Below, piece after piece: positions 1,672 through 13,756 of a stretch of DNA of 64,000 bases. The first letter of the stretch is position 1. Each line of letters opens with the position of its first letter. The DNA is from an uncultured Lachnospiraceae bacterium (GTDB taxonomy: Bacteria > Bacillota > Clostridia > Lachnospirales > Lachnospiraceae). Where the stretch lies: NCBI GenBank assembly GCA_905235745.1, contig CAJOMN010000015.1:1-64000 (forward strand), in the 5' to 3' direction. The notes below the pieces were generated by a model that searched no databases, was not told where the DNA came from, and worked only from the letters and a program-made list of their open reading frames with translations. Made by a program: the position numbers and the translations under genes.

Positions 1672-4600
1672 GTGCGAACGGTGATCGACAGATACGCTGA
1701 CGGTTTCTTCGACTATGACTGCGGCAAGCTTTTGTTTTCCGTATCGAAGATTGAAGCCGATATGCCACAGGGCGATCTGTTCGAGGGCGATTTCACACTG
1801 TCTTCCGAAGACGGAAGGGATTTCTCTGCCGGTATATATACTTCGAGCATGCGGCTCGTATGCAGGAACGACCATGTCGATAATGAACCGCAGGCGCAGA
1901 TACATTATGTCTTCGATTCCACGGGTCTTGAAAGCGGCGATGTCGTAAAGGGCGACATACAGGTCGTATCAAGCTCCGGCGAGTACTATCTCCCTTTTGT
2001 GTTTTCCATTTCCTACGGAATAGTTCAAAGCTCGGTCGGCAACGTAAGGAATCTGTTCCATTTCACCAATCAGGCGCAGGTCAACTGGAAAGAGGCTGTA
2101 GATCTGTTCTATTCGCCTGTTTTCGAGCGTGTATTTGGCGGTAATGACCGGATCCATTACGACAAGTTCAGAGGTCTTTCCAACATCCCGGGCGATCCGC
2201 AGGCGGTTGATGATTTTCTCGTTGCGATCAACAAGAAGCGTCCCGTCACATATTCCGTGGACAGAACCAATTATGAATACAATGACGTATCCGATAATGT
2301 CAATTGTGAATTGCTGCTGCATAGATCCACATGGGGGAACATTGATGTAACGCTGTCAACCGACGCGCCGTTCATCAGACTGGACAAGGAAAAGGTCGGA
2401 GCGGATGATTTTGTCGGTAACGACCATCTCGTGAAGTTTACTATAACAGGCGATGCGCTTCATGAGGGCAGGAACTTCGGAAGCATCACGGTGACATATC
2501 CGCGCGGCAGTTTTGACATCGGCATTACGGCAAGGCACAGGGCAAGGATCGATGCAAAAAGGGTGGCAAGGCGGGAGAAGAAGAATCTCACAATGCGCCT
2601 GATGCGCCTGTACATTGATTTTCGCATGAAGAAGACAAATGTCGGGAGTTGGGTAAGGGAGTCGATGAAGGTCGTGGAGCGCATGAACGCGCTTGATGAC
2701 AAGAATCCGGTATCCCGTATGTACCAGGCACAGCTCCTTATCGTACAGCGCCGTGAAAATGAGGCGCGGTGGGTGCTCGATCACGTTGAGAACGAGATGA
2801 ACATCGACGGGTGCCCCGACACCTACAGGGCGTATTATATGTACCTCAGGACGCTCGTCAACCGTGACAACGATTATACCGACGAGACGGCGGTTAAGGT
2901 GAACGAGCTGTTTGAAAATAATCCCGGCAGCTTTGAGATATTGTGGACGCTCCTGTATCTCGACGAGGATCTTGCGGACAACGCAAGCCGTAAGATAGGC
3001 CTTATAGAGAAGATGTTCGGGGACGGATGCAAATCGCCGATACTGTATATCGAGGCATATAATTTCTTTGTTTCCAATACGGAGAAGCTTAACAAGCTGA
3101 CGGATTTTGAGATACAGGTTCTAACGTTTGCCGCAAAGCTTAAAGTGATGGATACGGAGGTTCTGAAGCAGTTCCTGTATCTGGCCGGCAAGCAGCGGGA
3201 GTTCAATCCGCTGTTATACAAGCTCCTGTGCATGTGTTATGACATAACGGATGACGACGATATCATCGAGGTCGTAGCGACCATGCTTATCAAAGGAAAT
3301 CTGTCGGGGGAGGCATACTTCATATGGTTCGATAAGGCGGTAAAGCTTCAGCTTCGTATCACCAAGCTGTATGAGTACTATATGTATTCGGTTCCGTCCG
3401 ATTATGACGGAGTGATCCCGAAATCGGTGCTTATGTATTTCGGTTTCAGGAACGACATGAACTATCACAGGATCGCTTTTCTGTATGCCAATCTGATAGA
3501 TCATAAGAGAGAGTATATCGACACCTATGACACTTATCGCGAGCATATGCAGGTATTTGCGGTCGAGCAGATAGAGCAGGAGCATATCGACGGTAATCTC
3601 GCCAGGATATACGAGGATGTTCTGTTCATGGAGATGATCAAGCCGGAAATGGCGCGTCATCTCGCGAAGATACTGTTCGCATACGAGGTCAGGACAGATG
3701 ATCCCCGGGCGAAAAATGTTGTTCTCGTGCAGTCGCAGTTTGAAGGCGAAATGGTCTTCAGGATAGAAAACGGATATGCGTATCCTACGATATATACCGG
3801 CGACTATATGCTGTTTACGGAGGATCAGAACGGAAGACGGACAGTCATTGACCAGTCCAACGTCAAAAAGCTCCTCAATGAGGTCGTATATTTGCAGGCT
3901 GTCAAATATTATGTCATGGATAATGTGTATTTTGACATGTATCTGTGTGAGGGCAGAAAGCATTACGTGACGGTCGATGAAACAAACGTCGAGTTCTGCC
4001 GGGAGCTTGCGGAGTCGAAGCTTGTGAACGAGTATTACAAACGCGATATCCGGATGGCGCTTATCCAGTACTACTATGACAACGACCAGATCACTACGCT
4101 CGATGATTTTCTGCTCGGAATGGATATCAAGGTGCTTTCCGCCAAGGACAGGGCGACCGTTGTCAAATTCATGACACGCCGGGGCATGTTTGAGAAGGCC
4201 TATCAGATAATGTGCATATACGGCACGGAAGAGATCGCCGCCAAGGACTGTGTCGGGGTATGCAGCCACATGATCCGCGAGAAGGATCAGCTGCCGGATA
4301 TGCTTCTGATCAAGCTGTGCAATTATGCCTTCGAAAACGGCAAGTATGATGATGTGCTGCTGGGTTATCTTGTGGAGAATTTCAACGGGCTTACGAAGCA
4401 GCTGCGTAACATATGGAAGGCAGCGAAGAATTTCGAGATAGATACGTTCCCGCTCATGGAGAGGCTGATCATACAGATGCTGTACACGCATACGACGGTG
4501 GGCGAGAAAGAGGAGATATTTGAGGAATACTGCCAGCACGCATCCGGGACAAGGGTTCAGCTTGCCTACCTGTCATATTGTTCATTTGAGTATTTTGCGC

Positions 4601-5229
4601 GGGAGCGGCTTACTGACGAGAAAGTCTTTGCGCATATCATCGATCTATACCGTGTCGGCGAACAGTTAAATGATGCGTGCAAGCTGGCGCTTCTCAAATA
4701 CTATTCCGATGACAAGGCGGGCAGGACCGAGAAGATCAAGGATATGCTCAGGGAATTTCTCGTTGATTTTATGCACAGGAACACATATTTCAGATTTTTC
4801 TCCAATTACATCGACATCGTCCCCGAGATCTCCGAGTATCTTGACAAGACTATCATCGAATACAGAACCAACCCGGCGAGCCGCGTGATGCTCCATTACA
4901 TTCTCGAGAACGGGGATGATGACTCCAACTATCATTCCGAGGAAATGAGGAATATGTTCGGAGGGGTATTTACAAGGGAGTTTATACTGTTCTACGGAGA
5001 GGATCTGCAGTACTACATAACCGAGGAATTAAACGGCAAGGAGCTGCTTACGGCCAGTGATTCGCTGTCGGTGAGCGATACGAGTGATACGGGACAGGAT
5101 TCACGTTACTCGATGATCAACGATATGGTCGTATCGAGAACCGTCAAGGATGACAATACGCTGCTTGATATAATGCGCGAGTATGTCGAGGCAGATGCTT
5201 TTGCGCATATGGTGTTTAAGCTCCGCTGA
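1672..5229 (+). CDS. Large helical-repeat protein of the DUF5717 type
   Basis: About 1185 residues. The frame is open from 1585, but GTG at 1672 is the better start: AGGCAGG sits just upstream, the divergent promoter occupies the preceding bases, and a start VRTVIDRYADGFFDYD matches the way I recall DUF5717-type proteins beginning. The first 300 or so residues look beta-rich, with an immunoglobulin-like stretch (LSTDAPFIRLDKEKV) before an Arg/Lys-rich hinge (ARRKR-like) at about residue 300. The rest is mostly alpha-helical and TPR-like. No signal peptide or membrane segment is visible, so a cytoplasmic scaffold is likely. It is first in an operon with the actin/Hsp70-like protein at 5259, a second TPR protein and a membrane protein. 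Function is unknown. Confidence 0.8.
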   Translation: MRTVIDRYADGFFDYDCGKLLFSVSKIEADMPQGDLFEGDFTLSSEDGRDFSAGIYTSSMRLVCRNDHVDNEPQAQIHYVFDSTGLESGDVVKGDIQVVSSSGEYYLPFVFSISYGIVQSSVGNVRNLFHFTNQAQVNWKEAVDLFYSPVFERVFGGNDRIHYDKFRGLSNIPGDPQAVDDFLVAINKKRPVTYSVDRTNYEYNDVSDNVNCELLLHRSTWGNIDVTLSTDAPFIRLDKEKVGADDFVGNDHLVKFTITGDALHEGRNFGSITVTYPRGSFDIGITARHRARIDAKRVARREKKNLTMRLMRLYIDFRMKKTNVGSWVRESMKVVERMNALDDKNPVSRMYQAQLLIVQRRENEARWVLDHVENEMNIDGCPDTYRAYYMYLRTLVNRDNDYTDETAVKVNELFENNPGSFEILWTLLYLDEDLADNASRKIGLIEKMFGDGCKSPILYIEAYNFFVSNTEKLNKLTDFEIQVLTFAAKLKVMDTEVLKQFLYLAGKQREFNPLLYKLLCMCYDITDDDDIIEVVATMLIKGNLSGEAYFIWFDKAVKLQLRITKLYEYYMYSVPSDYDGVIPKSVLMYFGFRNDMNYHRIAFLYANLIDHKREYIDTYDTYREHMQVFAVEQIEQEHIDGNLARIYEDVLFMEMIKPEMARHLAKILFAYEVRTDDPRAKNVVLVQSQFEGEMVFRIENGYAYPTIYTGDYMLFTEDQNGRRTVIDQSNVKKLLNEVVYLQAVKYYVMDNVYFDMYLCEGRKHYVTVDETNVEFCRELAESKLVNEYYKRDIRMALIQYYYDNDQITTLDDFLLGMDIKVLSAKDRATVVKFMTRRGMFEKAYQIMCIYGTEEIAAKDCVGVCSHMIREKDQLPDMLLIKLCNYAFENGKYDDVLLGYLVENFNGLTKQLRNIWKAAKNFEIDTFPLMERLIIQMLYTHTTVGEKEEIFEEYCQHASGTRVQLAYLSYCSFEYFARERLTDEKVFAHIIDLYRVGEQLNDACKLALLKYYSDDKAGRTEKIKDMLREFLVDFMHRNTYFRFFSNYIDIVPEISEYLDKTIIEYRTNPASRVMLHYILENGDDDSNYHSEEMRNMFGGVFTREFILFYGEDLQYYITEELNGKELLTASDSLSVSDTSDTGQDSRYSMINDMVVSRTVKDDNTLLDIMREYVEADAFAHMVFKLR

Positions 5230-5258
5230 CGTATCAGCATAAACGGAAGGATGGATAT

Positions 5259-6536
5259 ATGCCCGGTTACATCATAGGCTATGATCTGAACGATTCAATG
5301 TCTCAGATCAGTTATGTGGAATTAAATGATCAGACGCCCGAGACGGTCGCGAGTGACAAAGAAGAGGAACGGCTCGGGATACCGACCGTTCTGTCCAAAC
5401 GCAGGGGAGTCGCCCAGTGGGAATTCGGAACCGCTGCGGTAAGGGCTGCCGAAGCGGGGACTTCAACGCTCGTCGATCATATGATGAGCATTGCGGCAGC
5501 GGGCGCCAAGATAGAGATCGAGGGCGAGGCGTATGATGCGACGGATCTCCTGATATTGTTTGTCAGAAGATCGCTGAATCTTCTGTCCGTGATGCTCTCA
5601 CCGTCCGATGTGGAATACATGATAATAACAGTGTCATCCCTTGAGGGAAAGCTCGTCGACGTTGTCGAAAAGATAGCAAACGCAATGCCGGTCGCGAGAG
5701 ACCGCATAATCATCCAGACATACGAAGAGAGCATCTATTATTATCTGCTCCACCAGCCGGAGGATCTGTGGGAAAGGGACGTTGCGGTATTTGATTATTC
5801 AGGTCCTTATCTTCGCGCATATCTTCTGTGGATGAACATGGGCACCGAGCCCGTGGTGGCGTTCGTCGACAGGACTGATTTTGAAGAGATCAGGATGCCG
5901 AAGCTTATGATGGAAGAGGAGGTATCGCTCGAAAAAGCGGAAAGGATAGACGAGGCGATACTTCAGACCGCTCACGATTATTTCTCCAACAAGGATGTCG
6001 GGACGGTATTCCTGCTCGGCGAGGGATTTGAGGGAGGCTGGTGCGGCAAGACTCTCAAGTTCATGTGCATGGGCAAACGCGTATTTCAGGGACGCAATAT
6101 GTATTCCAAGGGTGCATGCTACTGCGGAAGGGACAAGGCGAAGCCGTGCGATCTGAACAGAGAGTATGTCTTCCTTGGAGCCGACAAGCTCAAGTTCAAT
6201 CTCGGGCTTAAAATGATGGTCGCCGGGAAAGAGGAGTACCTTGCCGTGGCGGATGCGGGTGAAAACTGGTATGATTCGGGCGTGACATATGATTTTGTCC
6301 TCGGAGATTCAAGAAGCGTCCCGCTCATCATGACGCCTCTTGACGGAAAAGGCGTTGAAAATATCGAGATAGAGTTATCCGGTCTTCCGGAACGGCCGGC
6401 GAAGGCGTCCAGACTGAGGCTAACCGTTTCGTTCGAGTCGGAAACAAGGATGAAAATATTAGTGGAGGATCTGGGATTCGGTGAATTCTTCCCGTCGACA
6501 GGCAGGAAGTGGGAGAAGATCATAGAGTTTCGGTGA
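5259..6536 (+). CDS. Actin/Hsp70-fold (ASKHA-like) protein of the DUF5716 type
   Basis: 425 residues. Three stretches resemble the nucleotide-binding signature of the actin/Hsp70/sugar-kinase fold. IIGYDLNDSMSQISYV (residues 5-20) looks like phosphate-1, VAVFDYSGPYLRAYLL (175-190) like phosphate-2, and TVFLLGEGFEGGW (249-261) like the adenosine motif. RIIIQTYEESIYYYLL (149-164) sits where Hsp70 has its EPTAAALAY-type segment. A cysteine-containing loop (GACYCGRDKAKPC, about 285-297) follows. I recognise the family as the uncharacterised DUF5716 type found next to DUF5717 genes in Lachnospiraceae. Nucleotide binding is inferred from motif shape. It follows the 1672 gene by 29 bases, with AAGGA upstream of its ATG, and leads directly into the TPR gene at 6543. 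Confidence 0.75.
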   Translation: MPGYIIGYDLNDSMSQISYVELNDQTPETVASDKEEERLGIPTVLSKRRGVAQWEFGTAAVRAAEAGTSTLVDHMMSIAAAGAKIEIEGEAYDATDLLILFVRRSLNLLSVMLSPSDVEYMIITVSSLEGKLVDVVEKIANAMPVARDRIIIQTYEESIYYYLLHQPEDLWERDVAVFDYSGPYLRAYLLWMNMGTEPVVAFVDRTDFEEIRMPKLMMEEEVSLEKAERIDEAILQTAHDYFSNKDVGTVFLLGEGFEGGWCGKTLKFMCMGKRVFQGRNMYSKGACYCGRDKAKPCDLNREYVFLGADKLKFNLGLKMMVAGKEEYLAVADAGENWYDSGVTYDFVLGDSRSVPLIMTPLDGKGVENIEIELSGLPERPAKASRLRLTVSFESETRMKILVEDLGFGEFFPSTGRKWEKIIEFR

Positions 6537-6542
6537 TTGTAT

Positions 6543-7379
6543 ATGGCTTGTGAAATGTATCTGTGCATAGGCACGCTTTCCACAACTCCATATTTTCTGT
6601 CCGGCCTTGGAGTAAATGTCTACTCCATGGACGAGCTGTGCTATTATCTGTGCGTAAACGCGTATATTCTTGATAATGACCTTATTGACACAAGATTATG
6701 CGATTACATGCGTGACAATCTCGGTATGGCACCGCTTGCCTCAAAGCTTCGCAGAATGATCAGGGAGGGCAGGACTCTCGGAGAGATGGTGACCACGATA
6801 CTTATTGATACGAACTACTGTACCGATGAAGAGATAGCGCGTATCAAGCAGATACTTGTGGACAACGCATCGCTTTCTTTTGCCGCGAAGCGCAAGCTTA
6901 GAGGCGACAATCTGCTTCGGGCGAATAAATACCCGAGAGCCATAGAGGAATACCAGTATGTGCTGTCAGTTCTCGACCGTGAGGAGGAACCGGAGCTTTA
7001 CAGCAGTATACTGCACAATGTAGGATGTGCATATGCGATGATGTTCCTTCTTGACAAGGCGGCGGACTATTTTAAACAGGCTTACGATACGGACGCATCA
7101 AGGGAGAGCCTTGTACTGTATCTTGTCTGCCTGCGGCTTAGCGCCTCCAAAGAGGAATATGACAGGATAGTTGTCAGGAACGGATATGACGAGAGGGTAG
7201 CGCTTGAAGCTGTAAGGGTCATGACCTCGGCAAGAGAAGCTCCGATAGACACTCCATATTCTGATATAATGAGGCAGATACTCGAACTTAATGACGCCGG
7301 AAGGGTAACGGAATTCTACGCGGCAGTGGATACGGCGCTTGAAGACTGGAAACAGGAATACAGAAGGACGATGTCATAG
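6543..7379 (+). CDS. TPR-repeat protein, third gene of the DUF5717/DUF5716 operon
   Basis: 278 residues from ATG 6543. The GGTGA that ends the previous gene acts as its ribosome-binding site; a TTG at 6537 is possible but sits too close to it. The N-terminal half (MYLCIGTLSTTPYF, then YSMDELCYYLCVNAYIL) has no known domain name that I can give. The second half is TPR-like: LLRANKYPRAIEEYQYVL, ILHNVGCAYAMMFLLDKAADYF and a further helix pair. I recall related proteins beside DUF5716/DUF5717 genes in other Lachnospiraceae, so it is probably a fixed member of that set. No signal peptide or membrane segment is seen. Likely an adaptor between the ATPase-like protein and other components. Confidence 0.7.
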   Translation: MACEMYLCIGTLSTTPYFLSGLGVNVYSMDELCYYLCVNAYILDNDLIDTRLCDYMRDNLGMAPLASKLRRMIREGRTLGEMVTTILIDTNYCTDEEIARIKQILVDNASLSFAAKRKLRGDNLLRANKYPRAIEEYQYVLSVLDREEEPELYSSILHNVGCAYAMMFLLDKAADYFKQAYDTDASRESLVLYLVCLRLSASKEEYDRIVVRNGYDERVALEAVRVMTSAREAPIDTPYSDIMRQILELNDAGRVTEFYAAVDTALEDWKQEYRRTMS

Positions 7380-7396
7380 CAATAAGAAGATAAGAT

Positions 7397-8605
7397 ATGA
7401 AGATAGTAGACTGGCTAAAGGATATATTCGGTTTCGGTGACGATGATTTTGACGACATAGAGCTGAACTTCGATTCGGATTCGGCAGGGTCGATAATGGA
7501 TTCGCTCGCAAGAGCATCCAAAAAGAGACGTACACTGAACATGAACGACAGGGCGCAGCGCGAGCAGTATGTCAGGGAATACTGCGAAATGATGTCTGTT
7601 GCGTCCAAAGATGTTGATGCGCAGAAGGCGGAGTATCAGCAGGTAACGCAGCGCCTTGCAGACCTTGAGGAGATAGACAAGCTCCCGATCACAGACAAGA
7701 GCCAGGTCCGGTTAAGGGCGAACAAGATCGTCAAGATCGAACAGGAGGACAGCGATTACAAGCGTCCCGCGAGCAAGATAACGGAAGCGCAGTACCGTGA
7801 AATGGAGCGCCTCGCAGCCGATATCCCGGAAATACTCGGTAAGATGAAAGAGGATGAAGAGTATCAGTCTGTGGTCAGACGGGATCTTAACCTGCTTGAG
7901 GGCGAAAAGGGCGCGGTTGCATATCAGCGCAAGGAAGAGCGGGCAAAAGCAAGGAACGCCAAGAATATCGCATTCGTTGCCATCTTCGGCGCCGTTATGG
8001 CGGCAGCGCTGCTGTTTGTCGTTAATCAGGCAATGCATATTAATGTCGAAATGGGATATATCATCGTTGCCGGTGCGTTTGCCGTTATACTGACTGCGTC
8101 GTTTGTGATGTATCAGAATGCGCAGAGCGGGATTGCCAGTTCCAACCGGAAGCTGAACAAGGCGATAAGCGTTCAGAATACGGTTAAGATCAAGTACGTG
8201 AACATCACGAACGTGCTGGACTACAATTATGCCAAATACGGCGTGATGAATTCATATGAGCTTTCCTATATATGGGAGAAGTACAATGAGGAGAAGGAAG
8301 CAAGGGAGCATGATTCCGATATCTCGGAGCGCTTAGAGGAAGCCCGCAGCGAGCTGTACCAGCTTCTCAAGCATTACCACATAAACGATCCGTCGATATG
8401 GGTATATCAGCCGGGAGTCCTTGTCTATGACGACGAGGCTAAGGATATCAGGAAGCAGCTTATCGTGCAGCGTCAGCGCCTTAAAAAAGGGATCGATTTT
8501 GAAATGTACAATCTTGAGACCGCCAAGAAAGAGATAGAAGCGCTTGTGCGCGAGTATCCGAAGTATGCGGAAGATATTATCTCGGTCGTGGATGAATTTG
8601 ACTGA
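7397..8605 (+). CDS. Coiled-coil membrane protein with two central transmembrane helices
   Basis: 402 residues. An acidic N-terminus (FGFGDDDFDDIELNFD, about residues 11-26) is followed by long charged helices likely to form coiled coil (about 50-185). Two hydrophobic helices are at about 190-210 (NIAFVAIFGAVMAAALLFVV) and 219-239 (GYIIVAGAFAVILTASFVMY). A second charged helical region runs to the C-terminus. Both ends would face the same side of the membrane, most simply the cytoplasm. It follows the TPR gene by 17 bases in the same operon and is the only membrane protein there, so it could anchor the complex. No family name recognised. Confidence 0.7.
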   Translation: MKIVDWLKDIFGFGDDDFDDIELNFDSDSAGSIMDSLARASKKRRTLNMNDRAQREQYVREYCEMMSVASKDVDAQKAEYQQVTQRLADLEEIDKLPITDKSQVRLRANKIVKIEQEDSDYKRPASKITEAQYREMERLAADIPEILGKMKEDEEYQSVVRRDLNLLEGEKGAVAYQRKEERAKARNAKNIAFVAIFGAVMAAALLFVVNQAMHINVEMGYIIVAGAFAVILTASFVMYQNAQSGIASSNRKLNKAISVQNTVKIKYVNITNVLDYNYAKYGVMNSYELSYIWEKYNEEKEAREHDSDISERLEEARSELYQLLKHYHINDPSIWVYQPGVLVYDDEAKDIRKQLIVQRQRLKKGIDFEMYNLETAKKEIEALVREYPKYAEDIISVVDEFD

Positions 8606-8610
8606 GATTA

Positions 8611-8970
8611 TTATTGACGTTCACTATAGAGGGTCACGGAAAAATCATCCAGCATCTTTCCGACACTGGGAGATATTGATACGAATTCGCAGCCGTATCT
8701 GTAGTGCTCCTTATCAATGGCGCTGCTTCTGATAATACGGACATCGGTTATGATCTGGGGATATTGGGGAGCAAGCTCGATGTTGGCTATAAAATAATAA
8801 CCGACCGGAAGAATACACTGAGAGATAAAACCGATACCTTTGGATGAGATATCGATCACTTCAACATCCAGATCAAGATCCATTATCGTATTTGTATGTT
8901 CCTTGTACAGATTGGAAACGGTCAGCTTGATACCTATCGGAACACGCTTGTCCTGCCTTTTTTCTTCCAT
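8611..8970 (-). CDS. PilZ-domain c-di-GMP receptor protein
   Basis: 119 residues from the ATG at 8970, chosen because AAAGGAG lies just upstream; the frame is open further 5' but without a ribosome-binding site. The protein is essentially one PilZ domain. RQDKR (residues 5-9) is the RxxxR motif and DISSKGIGF contains the (D/N)xSxxG motif, the two elements that contact c-di-GMP. A conserved ending VSISPSVGKMLDDF is present. Proteins of this size act as effector subunits that respond to c-di-GMP in motility or envelope control. It converges on the coiled-coil membrane protein gene with 5 bases between stops. The GGDEF-EAL protein at 30733 belongs to the same signalling network. Confidence 0.88.
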   Translation of the reverse strand: MEEKRQDKRVPIGIKLTVSNLYKEHTNTIMDLDLDVEVIDISSKGIGFISQCILPVGYYFIANIELAPQYPQIITDVRIIRSSAIDKEHYRYGCEFVSISPSVGKMLDDFSVTLYSERQ

Positions 8971-9089
8971 GACTGCTCCTTTACTATATATGAGCGGATT
9001 AAATCCGTTCACTGTAATTGTTTCGTTGAATAATCTATCATATTTTCACGGTATGAACAAGGTTTTGATTAAATGAAGGGATTAATGGT

Positions 9090-10519: not shown

Positions 10520-12118
10520 TTGATCTTTTTTGAACTGTACAGACAACTCGACATACGCGTTTTCCAGACTGTTTCTGCCATTGACCAGACATACGGATCA
10601 TGCGCAAAGTACGTATTTGACGGCGATTCACTTATCCTGCTCGGAATAGACCATTCCATAAGATTAGACATATTGACCAAGGAAGTCAAACGCGACAACC
10701 CCATTAAGAACTGGGATATGGAGAATGAGACGGTGATGTGGTTTGCACAGGATTCCGCGGAAGCCGCTCTTGTCCGACTGATCAACGATGCATACAGGAA
10801 ATGGATGCAGCTTGATTCGAATATCTCCGATGAGTATTTCGAGGCGGAGCTTGAGGATGTCAACCGGATACTGGCAGGCTATGCTCTCAGGATATTTGCC
10901 GACGATACGGGTATGTCCGTTTTCAGGGACGATACGGAATATGCCTCCGCCGATGAGTATACATTCGAGCAGGCGGTAGAGCTGATCATGGATATGGACG
11001 AGAACCGGATGGATGAGGCCGGGATCAGTCAGCTTATAAGCGAAGCGCTTTACTATAGGAAGATGGACCGGTACGAGGATGCTGCCGTAAGGCTTGAGAA
11101 GGTGGTAAGATATGCCGATCACACGCTTCCCGTCTATTCGCAGACCGTATTTACCCTTGCCGAGACATATTATTTCCTGGGCAATTATGAACGCGCAGTA
11201 ATGCTGTACTATCGGGTGAATCTTCAGTTTGTCGCGGACGAGAATGATTTCTATCTTCATCTCGGGCATGCTCTTATAGACGCCCGGATGAAGAAATACG
11301 ACAGGCATCTGCGCATTTACTATCACAGCCTTATCGACAGCGAATATGCCGACACCCACAGACAGGCGGTTGCGGCGGCAAAGGCGAGTGTCGCCGAAGT
11401 ATATGCGGAATACGAGGCGACCTGTGCGGATATGGGAAGAAAGAAATACGCCGAGTTTCGCAACAGCCTTCCTGCGGAGGCGGATGACATAGATGAGATC
11501 CTGGAAGAATACGAGAATCCGGAAGAGCGCACTGACCGGATGCATAGGCAGTATGAAGGATTCCGGCTTCGCGAGCCCAGGACGGGAGCGGAGCAGACAT
11601 CCCTGTCCGTCAACGAGCGACTGTCAAATGCGCTGGAGGACTATCTCGGAGGAGAATACCAGCAGGCGTTTGAGCAGTATTTCAGGCTGGCATCCCAGAC
11701 CGATCCCAATTCCGATTTCTATACATGGATACATCTGCAGCTCGGCAAGCTGTACTGCTTCTTTGACGAACCGTACAAGGCGTGTGATGTATTGAAAAAA
11801 TGCAATCCGACGAGATTCGGCGTTGTATACAGGCAGGAAGACTATCTGCTGCTGTATTCGCACGCGCACGTTGTCGCGGAGGATTTTGAAAGCGACGACA
11901 GGTTCAGGAAGCTTGTCAGGGGAAAAATGGATCCGTACTATGCCCGGTATGACAGGCAGTACAATCTACTGCAAAATGACAGGAAGCTGATGCGATCCTT
12001 CAGGACATATGAGAAGGACTGCATTGATGATTCCCGGTATGAACTGAGGAACGTCCTTCGGGAAGCAAAGCCCAAAAACGGCAGACTGTTCGGAAGAAGA
12101 CGCAGGAATCCTTCATAA
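10520..12118 (+). CDS. TPR-repeat protein of unknown function
   Basis: 532 residues. The start is TTG 10520, 9 bases after AGGAG at 10506-10510. The nearer ATG at 10513 is in another frame and stops after six codons. The N-terminal 150 residues form an unrecognised domain. TPR-like helix pairs follow, for example YYRKMDRYEDAAVRLEKV, VFTLAETYYFLGNYERAVML and YLGGEYQQAFEQYFRL, with a charged linker between two repeat blocks. The C-terminus is strongly basic (GRLFGRRRRNPS), which may contact RNA or phospholipid. No signal peptide is seen. Codon use resembles the neighbouring genes. Functional partners are not evident. Confidence 0.65.
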   Translation: MIFFELYRQLDIRVFQTVSAIDQTYGSCAKYVFDGDSLILLGIDHSIRLDILTKEVKRDNPIKNWDMENETVMWFAQDSAEAALVRLINDAYRKWMQLDSNISDEYFEAELEDVNRILAGYALRIFADDTGMSVFRDDTEYASADEYTFEQAVELIMDMDENRMDEAGISQLISEALYYRKMDRYEDAAVRLEKVVRYADHTLPVYSQTVFTLAETYYFLGNYERAVMLYYRVNLQFVADENDFYLHLGHALIDARMKKYDRHLRIYYHSLIDSEYADTHRQAVAAAKASVAEVYAEYEATCADMGRKKYAEFRNSLPAEADDIDEILEEYENPEERTDRMHRQYEGFRLREPRTGAEQTSLSVNERLSNALEDYLGGEYQQAFEQYFRLASQTDPNSDFYTWIHLQLGKLYCFFDEPYKACDVLKKCNPTRFGVVYRQEDYLLLYSHAHVVAEDFESDDRFRKLVRGKMDPYYARYDRQYNLLQNDRKLMRSFRTYEKDCIDDSRYELRNVLREAKPKNGRLFGRRRRNPS

Positions 12119-12172: not shown

Positions 12173-12202
12173 TTGAGAAAATTAATCATTTGGTTAATTA
12201 TA
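12173..12202 (+). promoter_or_regulatory. Possible promoter of the chemotaxis receptor gene
   Basis: TTGAGA at 12173-12178 is followed after 17-18 bases by AATTAT/ATTATA (12196-12202), about 30 bases before the ribosome-binding site AAGGAGG at 12219. The surrounding 110-base gap is AT-rich. I see no sigma-28 motility promoter there. Confidence 0.35.
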
Positions 12203-12232
12203 TTTACAAGTATATTCAAGGAGGATTATGAT

Positions 12233-13756
12233 ATGGGTAAACAGAATAATGCAGCGGATGCCGGGAATGATATCGAGCGTCTTGAAAGCCTTGCGGCGAT
12301 GTCGGAGATCGAGCTTGCAAACGGTGTTGCGATCAGGGGGCACGTTATACTTGCAAGTATCATTGCGGTCGCTTATGTGCTTGAACTTGTCAAAGGTACC
12401 AGAACCCTTACTTATACGATTGTGACCGTTGTTTTATGTGTGGTTCCGTTTGCGGTGGGTCTTATATTCTACAACAAAGATCATGCCAGTAAAATGGTCA
12501 AGCATACGGTTATCATCGGATTTTCAGTGACATACTGGTTCCTTCTCTTTACTGCGCAGAATGATCTTGTGTTCACATATGCGATTCCGCTCATGGTTCT
12601 TAATACACTGTATGACGATCTTCGATCCACAAGGATCGTAGGTATCGGTCTTGCAATCATAAATGTTGTAGATGCTGTAATAAGATTTATAACTGATCCC
12701 GGTGTCAACACGGCCACACTGGAGATCCAGGCATTGCTTGTTATTATTATTGCATGGTATTTTGTGTGGACATCTTCTACCTCTGACAAGTTCAGTGCGA
12801 TCAGGACATCGAGGCTCGAACTCAAAGAACATAAGGAAAAAACACTGCTTGACAGGATCCTGCAGGTATCCGGTCATATGAGCGGAAATGTAACCACGGT
12901 TTCCGGTGAAATGGGTAACCTCAAAGATTCCGTTGCCCGGACACTTGATTCGATGAACGAGGTATCCACCGGTTCCAATGAATCGGCTGAGGCAATTCAG
13001 GAGCAGATGGTCAAGACCCAGGAAATCCAGAATTATATCACGGCGGTTTCGGATGCAGTAGGTATCATCGACGAAGATGTAAATGCCGCTTCCGATGCAG
13101 TACGGGAAGGTCAGCAGCATGTATCGGATCTGAATGATCTGACAGGTCAGATCGATACCGCCGGTAAAGAGGTTGCGGATGCACTCAAGGTATTCCAGGA
13201 TACCGCGGCACAGATGAATTCCATAACGGATCTTATTACCAACGTGGCGGATCAGACCAGTCTGTTATCATTAAATGCCAGCATCGAGGCGGCAAGAGCA
13301 GGAGAGGCCGGAAGAGGCTTCGCGGTTGTTGCGACTGAGATATCTAATCTTGCCGGACAGACGACAAGTGCTACGGAAGATATTACGGATCTTATCGGAA
13401 GGATCACTTCGCAGATCGATGTAATGGTATCAACGATCAGGAACCTTCTGGATATGGGCGAAGAAGAGAGCAGGGTTGCGAATGCGACATCGGAAAACTT
13501 CAACCTCATTGCGAATAATATGAATGAGATCTCAACCAATGCCGAGCAGCTGAATTCAACCGTTAACGAACTTGCCACGGCGAACAAAGCGATCGTTGAC
13601 AGTATTCAGACCGTATCGGCGATCACCGAAGAAGTATCCGCGCACGCGAACGAGACATTCACTGTCAGCGAACAGAATCAGGAGATCGTGGAAAGCGTCA
13701 TGAACCTGATAATAGAATTAAATGACGATGCTGTAAGACTACAAGAGGATGCATAA
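12233..13756 (+). CDS. Methyl-accepting chemotaxis protein without a large extracellular domain
   Basis: 507 residues from ATG 12233, which has a perfect AAGGAGG 7 bases upstream; the upstream codons in frame are leader. The N-terminal third is membrane-embedded, with about six hydrophobic helices (for example [36 protein letters not shown] and [15 protein letters not shown]) and very short loops, so signals are probably sensed within or near the membrane. I see no HAMP domain. The cytoplasmic half carries the MCP hairpin tip [20 protein letters not shown], which binds CheW and CheA, flanked by heptad helices bearing potential methylation sites. It lies alone, 27 bases upstream of the SPFH gene. 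Confidence 0.9.

Follow-up and report, generated by a model that had tools for sequence, protein, structure and literature searches.

The DUF5716/DUF5717 operon of Lachnospiraceae

We analyzed a four-gene operon in a stretch of 64,000 nucleotides (the window) of contig CAJOMN010000015.1, from an uncultured Lachnospiraceae bacterium (assembly GCA_905235745.1). The four open reading frames, here called A, B, C, and D (Table 1), lie on the same strand and are separated by 29 (A-B), 6 (B-C), and 17 (C-D) bases, just as an earlier reading based on the sequence alone (the sequence-only reading) had laid them out. A TTG codon six bases upstream of the ATG is a possible alternative start for C. The same reading had assigned A and B to the DUF5717 and DUF5716 types, which was confirmed by Pfam: B matches PF18980 (E = 7.9e-96), A is matched end to end by PF18984 (3.4e-277) and PF18983 (9.4e-105), and both families are above the cut-off and adjacent. 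None of the four proteins is named in NCBIfam, and we found no functional account of them in the open-access literature: the one paper that came up with either DUF name has an unrelated title, and PF18980, PF18983, and PF18984 occur in none.

Table 1. Genes of the operon and positions of interest within B (window coordinates)
Feature	Positions	Strand	Description	Basis
A (DUF5717)	1672..5229	+	1185 aa, GTG start	PF18984, PF18983
B (DUF5716)	5259..6536	+	425 aa, putative pseudo-Hsp70	PF18980, AF2, Foldseek, VIA, hhalign
Phosphate-1 position of B	5277..5300	+	GYDLNDSM for GIDLGTTN; Asp kept, both Thr lost	
Phosphate-2 position of B	5790..5819	+	FDYSGPYLRA for YDLGGGTFDV	
Adenosine-motif position of B	6012..6041	+	LLGEGFEGGW for LVGGSTRIPA	
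Substrate-binding beta-sandwich of B	6174..6533	+		Model, alignment
C (TPR protein)	6543..7379	+	278 aa from ATG	Weak Pfam TPR
D (membrane coiled coil)	7397..8605	+	402 aa, facultative member	Hydropathy

The presence counts given here refer to sampled genomes, with families and orders assigned by GTDB-style grouping. PF18980 was found in 147 of 150 Lachnospiraceae genera, in a single copy per genome. Three genomes lacked it; in one of them A reaches the end of the contig, and only two were devoid of both A and B. The co-occurrence of the two families claimed by the sequence-only reading was confirmed and goes well past what chance would give: A and B were neighbors on one strand in all 61 loci (median gap of 15 bases). 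C came directly after B in 55 of these loci and was fused to it in the remaining 6. D was present in 28 of the 61 loci, and a genome-wide search of the D-less Lachnospiraceae genomes tested gave only weak and short matches (≤21 bits), so D is a facultative member and A-B-C the constant core. The proposal of a four-gene, membrane-tethered unit is weakened as far as an obligate unit is meant, given that roughly half of the Lachnospiraceae loci and genomes lack D. In two Defluviitalea-type genomes, homologs of D were found unlinked to the locus. Neither PF18980 nor PF18984 was detected outside the order: the former gave 10 matches in 243 genomes of the class, the latter 5 in 398 genomes of the phylum, and every one of them was in Lachnospiraceae.

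B as a degenerate relative of Hsp70

The actin/Hsp70 (ASKHA) fold previously proposed for B is supported by a confident AlphaFold2 (AF2) model (predicted local distance difference test [pLDDT], 94.4; predicted template modeling score [pTM], 0.91), in which the nucleotide-binding-domain fold and the substrate-binding beta-sandwich are both present, with no lid. The top 50 Foldseek matches of this model were Hsp70-type chains and complexes. In VIA comparisons it matched DnaK (7kru_B; Z = 24.3, 395 residues, root-mean-square deviation of 5.5), Ssz1 (5mb9_B; Z = 24.2), 4gni_B (Z = 24.0), and Hsp110 chains (3c7n_A, Z = 23.4; 3d2e_C, Z = 23.0). A phmmer search of PDB with the single B sequence returned nothing useful and a profile was needed; the profile of Lachnospiraceae B alone retrieved six PDB sequences, every one a DnaK. 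Homology to active Hsp70s was found in a larger locus of sister families (described below), whose Hsp70 paralogs are named B1, B3, and B4 and whose DUF5716 member is named B2. Aligned with hhalign, Lachnospiraceae B matched the active paralogs B1/B3 over 410 columns (E = 7.9e-24), and the B protein of one such locus (L052) was matched by both PF18980 (1.8e-25) and the Hsp70 family PF00012 (1.9e-16). In a tree of 137 proteins, B of the window grouped with B2 (support, 0.976), as a sister to the active B3. Predicted fold and full-length homology together place B in the Hsp70 superfamily. One could also view B as an actin-like scaffold of the FtsA/PilM/MreB type that organizes a membrane structure with D as its anchor. 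The ASKHA fold and the membrane coiled-coil nature of D are in line with this, but the best matches are Hsp70s along the entire chain, including a beta-sandwich that actins lack, and D is absent from half of the loci, which makes such a scaffold unlikely.

The C terminus of B carries a near-invariant DLGFGEFFPS motif that is shared with B3 and is not found in DnaK. The chain stops around 12 residues past this motif, with neither a lid nor a long C-terminal tail, and in the DSSP assignment of the model it terminates in strands. The median number of residues after the last strand of the substrate-binding beta domain (SBD-beta) is 17 in B versus 162 in DnaK, showing that the helical lid (SBD-alpha) is absent. 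The alignment also gave no equivalent in B of LLLDVTPL, the LLLD-type interdomain linker.

The three nucleotide-pocket-like motifs noticed in the sequence-only reading do occupy Hsp70-equivalent positions, as assigned by alignment with the DnaK of the same genome, but they are degenerate (Table 1). B of the window has no equivalents of T11, K70, E171, T199, and K270, all present in the paralogs in the same alignment, and the canonical DnaK-type residue set (D8, T11, K70, E171, D194-GGG-T199, and K270) is for the most part missing. Across Lachnospiraceae B, the equivalents of T11, T12, K70, E171, G198, T199, D201, K270, and S274 have mostly been lost; the main residues retained are the phosphate-1 Asp (53 of 61 sequences) and, in the adenosine motif, a single Gly (61 of 61). 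At the position of the latter motif, GxGFxxxW is near-invariant. In contrast, B1, B3, and B4 retain D8, G10, T11, T12, K70, E171, D194, GGG, T199, D201, K270, and S274 in every sequence, the sole exception being one gap from a broken gene. Since the ATPase residues are lost, we read B as a pseudo-Hsp70, one predicted from its residues not to hydrolyze ATP.

The degeneration appears to predate the form of the operon seen in Lachnospiraceae, since B2 of the larger locus already lacks catalytic residues: the majority of its sequences have no T11 or E171, and K70, G198, T199, and D201 are missing from all or almost all of them. Within the same genomes, the median identity of B2 was 36%, compared with 71 to 75% for B1, B3, and B4. 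Such divergence would be expected once a protein no longer has to catalyze and constraint on it is relaxed. The sequence-only reading had taken B for an active Hsp70/actin-like machine, driven by ATP and assisted by TPR co-chaperones. It was right about the fold, and the retained Asp and Gly could be cited in its favor; the loss of the catalytic equivalents kept by the paralogs and the relaxed conservation of B2 both speak against it, and "ATP-driven" is an improbable description of B.

A larger multi-Hsp70 locus in sister families

In other families of the order, the matches to PF18980 were partial and in tandem. The gene order there is A - B1 (Hsp70) - O (coiled-coil GrpE) - B2 (DUF5716) - B3 (Hsp70) - B4 (Hsp70-vWA) - C - (D), with valS after the locus in some genomes. 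B1, B3, and B4 are proteins of ~559, ~546, and ~700 aa, respectively. B1, B2, and B3 end ~12 to 25 residues (median) past the last SBD-beta strand, and all are hence lid-less. In B4 (L052:10518-12677, also in L131-L207), which is very strongly conserved, a C-terminal vWA domain replaces the lid; its motif resembling a metal ion-dependent adhesion site (DTTGSMD) is intact. O (L052:5376-7313, with homologs in L043-L062 and L131-L207) has ~560 to 645 aa, or 279 aa in L043, and ends in a GrpE domain (PF01025, E = 1.4e-14). It is probably an unusual dedicated nucleotide exchange factor, specific to the locus and to the order. The idea of a chaperone-type machine put forward in the sequence-only reading therefore holds in kind, since the sister-family locus combines a GrpE domain with three Hsp70s that are intact; its "ATP-driven" part is not supported for B.

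We located the larger locus in named genomes by scanning for the conserved vWA domain of B4. Its carriers are Defluviitaleaceae, Defluviitalea phaphyphila, metagenome-assembled genomes (MAGs) labeled Candidatus Epulonipiscium, Petrocella, and other clostridial MAGs. All 37 named loci holding B1-O-B2-B3-B4 had an identical gene order. In many termite-gut Defluviitaleaceae the genes of the locus are scattered or lie at contig ends, and the L043 MAG has broken copies of B4 and C. Matches to the vWA domain in Bacteroidota and Pseudomonadales (L208-L210) were set aside, as no Hsp70 of this type adjoined them. The GrpE-profile matches outside the order were taken for ordinary GrpE, with the GrpE domain only and open frames of ~170 to 250 aa.

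To place the two forms of the locus, we used a ValS tree with other orders as the root. Each of the two main branches of the order contains full sets, and the Lachnospiraceae are nested inside, as the sister (support, 0.997) of G151, a genome with the full set. This nesting among full-set lineages favors loss over expansion: that B1, O, B3, and B4 were lost in Lachnospiraceae, and the whole locus in several other families, is well supported rather than proven. On the other side, the polarity comes from one gene tree, in which some deep nodes are weak. In the 150 Lachnospiraceae genomes, no vWA domain came near the level of B4 (best score, 53 bits), and in the genome of the window DnaK is the only full Hsp70, accompanied by one partial match. 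The near-universal gene set of Lachnospiraceae is thus probably what is left of a larger Hsp70 locus after its active Hsp70s were lost, the dead (non-ATPase) Hsp70 and the scaffolds having been kept. A more detailed scenario, to which we give about even odds, is that a dedicated chaperone machine was passed down to Lachnospirales-type bacteria, with four co-encoded Hsp70s (a pseudo-Hsp70 and three active lid-less ones, including one with vWA), a private coiled-coil GrpE, and a TPR/Ig scaffold. In Lachnospiraceae the ATPases would have been dropped, leaving a complex that works independently of nucleotide, in which the pseudo-Hsp70 is the hub and serves an important core function.

We found no description of the larger locus, or of the Hsp70 kinship of DUF5716, in the open-access literature. 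The main text of a 2024 survey of bacterial DnaK paralogs mentions neither Lachnospiraceae nor vWA (PMC11019930). Its private GrpE and its three lid-less but intact Hsp70s, including the fusion with vWA, make the locus look like an Hsp70 system undescribed in that literature. A similar theme is that of Kaur et al. (2020): in GAP1-N2 GTPase systems, HSP70 is joined by GrpE, by a beta-repeat protein carrying TPR or DnaJ, and in some cases by another HSP70, which is truncated (PMC7159879). As these parts resemble those of the larger locus, a related conflict or defense function might be envisaged. However, Lachnospirales-type loci differ in having four Hsp70s (one with vWA) and a vertically inherited core, present in single copy in nearly every genus, with an inheritance that agrees with ValS. 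Moreover, no GTPase, GAP1, or effector was found among the genes scanned (in the window, L052, L044, L055, and L095; other neighbors were not scanned exhaustively), and PADLOC gave only weak matches to candidate or generic models. A role in defense is unlikely.

The putative complex and known Hsp70 systems

The other proteins of the operon bear on how B could act. A is probably a long scaffold protein. It does contain the helical repeats for which it had first been described, as a TPR-like alpha-solenoid in the AF2 model (residues ~295 to 668 and ~737 to 1056), but it opens with two PapD/MSP-like beta-sandwiches (~16 to 116 and ~190 to 290) and has additional beta domains at residues ~670 to 733 and ~1059 to 1133. 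The pLDDT of this model is 87.3 and its pTM only 0.62, so that the arrangement of the domains is uncertain. VIA matched HYDIN/MSP/PapD-type domains (Z = 11 to 13), along with solenoids. C gave weak matches to TPR_2/TPR_12, below the Pfam cut-off. The B-C fusions (L063-L068) are single proteins of 684 to 723 aa that arose in about four independent events (L063/L064, L065/L067, L066, and L068), and C probably contacts B because of these repeated fusions. D has no Pfam match of value; its architecture is coiled coil, two transmembrane helices, and coiled coil, with hydrophobic segments near residues 188 to 240 in the hydropathy profile. A Pfam scan gave no J-domain match for A, C, D, or their homologs of the larger locus.

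We propose, with a probability of about 0.6, that B is a nucleotide-independent, Ssz1-like adaptor that holds clients on a TPR/Ig scaffold, sometimes tethered to the membrane, and that works beside the housekeeping DnaK. B would be a subunit for client binding and docking, in a role like that of Ssz1 in the yeast ribosome-associated complex, and its beta-sandwich would loosely hold a client or a partner strand. C would bind B directly, with A as the long scaffold, and D, where present, would tie the assembly to the cytoplasmic membrane. Client release in the larger version would be driven by the coiled-coil GrpE together with B1, B3, and B4, the active lid-less Hsp70s. The Lachnospiraceae complex would either need no ATP or hand its clients to the single housekeeping DnaK.

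Ssz1 has no lid, does not hydrolyze ATP, has a complete SBD-beta, and transiently binds clients for a partner Hsp70 (PMC7083937). B resembles it in the Hsp70 fold, the retained SBD-beta, the lack of a lid, the atypical linker, and, judging from its residues, the loss of hydrolysis. Ssz1 has kept its ATP binding and has the J-protein Zuo1 as its partner at the eukaryotic ribosome; B, a bacterial protein, has a more eroded pocket and is encoded together with TPR proteins. We regard the resemblance as an analogy rather than a demonstrated common lineage. With DnaK and canonical Hsp70s, B shares full-length homology, the nucleotide-binding domain, and SBD-beta, but not the catalytic residues, the lid, or the LLLD-type linker.

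Hsp110, Grp170, and Sse1 are likewise divergent Hsp70 relatives that assist Hsp70; they are ATP-binding proteins whose lid region is long. The main rival to our proposal is that B acts as such a regulator of the housekeeping DnaK, either like Hsp110/Sse1 or in place of the lost coiled-coil GrpE, by docking to it and promoting nucleotide exchange or client transfer. The Hsp110 chains among the structural matches are in its favor, as are the retention of a degenerate Hsp70 after the dedicated GrpE was lost and the position of the operon beside hrcA-dnaK-dnaJ in L095. Against it, B has no long Hsp110 lid region and is degenerate even in genomes where GrpE and three active Hsp70s stand alongside it. 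The operon adjoins dnaK in just one of 101 loci (L095, 1607-10305), immediately 3' of a controlling inverted repeat of chaperone expression (CIRCE) and hrcA-dnaK-dnaJ. We consider regulation of DnaK less likely than an adaptor role. The operon was also found after htpG in L073 (14236-16531) and L117 (1328-4804) and before groESL in L075 (10217-12296), and hrcA-dnaK-dnaJ, htpG, or groESL lay within the examined stretch in 7 of the 101 loci. This adjacency is circumstantial, and we use it as supporting evidence only.

Several observations weigh against a client-holding adaptor that does without nucleotide. Heat-shock linkage, which had looked strong in the first 61 loci, recurred just once in 40 fresh loci, and a single clade accounts for the first four htpG cases. 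The operon of the window has no CIRCE box, and the neighbors are unrelated at most loci. There is no J-domain gene in the locus, the dnaJ of L095 being part of the dnaK operon. As the linker and lid of DnaK are absent from B, a classical chaperone cycle is unlikely. Finally, B retains a conserved pocket core (D9, GxGF, W261, and GA), so it may still bind some ligand.

Lachnospiraceae rank with the most abundant bacteria of the human gut, and the A-B-C trio is present, nameless, in nearly all of their genera. Reading DUF5716 as a pseudo-Hsp70 offers a first testable hypothesis for this trio. Ssz1 would thereby gain a counterpart in bacteria, and the operon would be a natural experiment of evolution, with a dead chaperone kept and the living ones discarded.

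Other genes were noted around these loci. A PilZ-domain gene (PF07238, E = 1.6e-8; window positions 8611-9012) is convergent with the 3' end of the operon. Further downstream, the window encodes another TPR-containing protein of 532 aa (10520-12118), with no close relative in the loci compared, followed by a chemoreceptor-like gene (12173-13756). A second TPR family, distinct from C, lies past valS in some Lachnospiraceae loci (L112:15113-16528, L067:2074-3690, L121:15601-17037, and others), and several of its members start with a zinc-ribbon-like N terminus (CxxC...CxxC).

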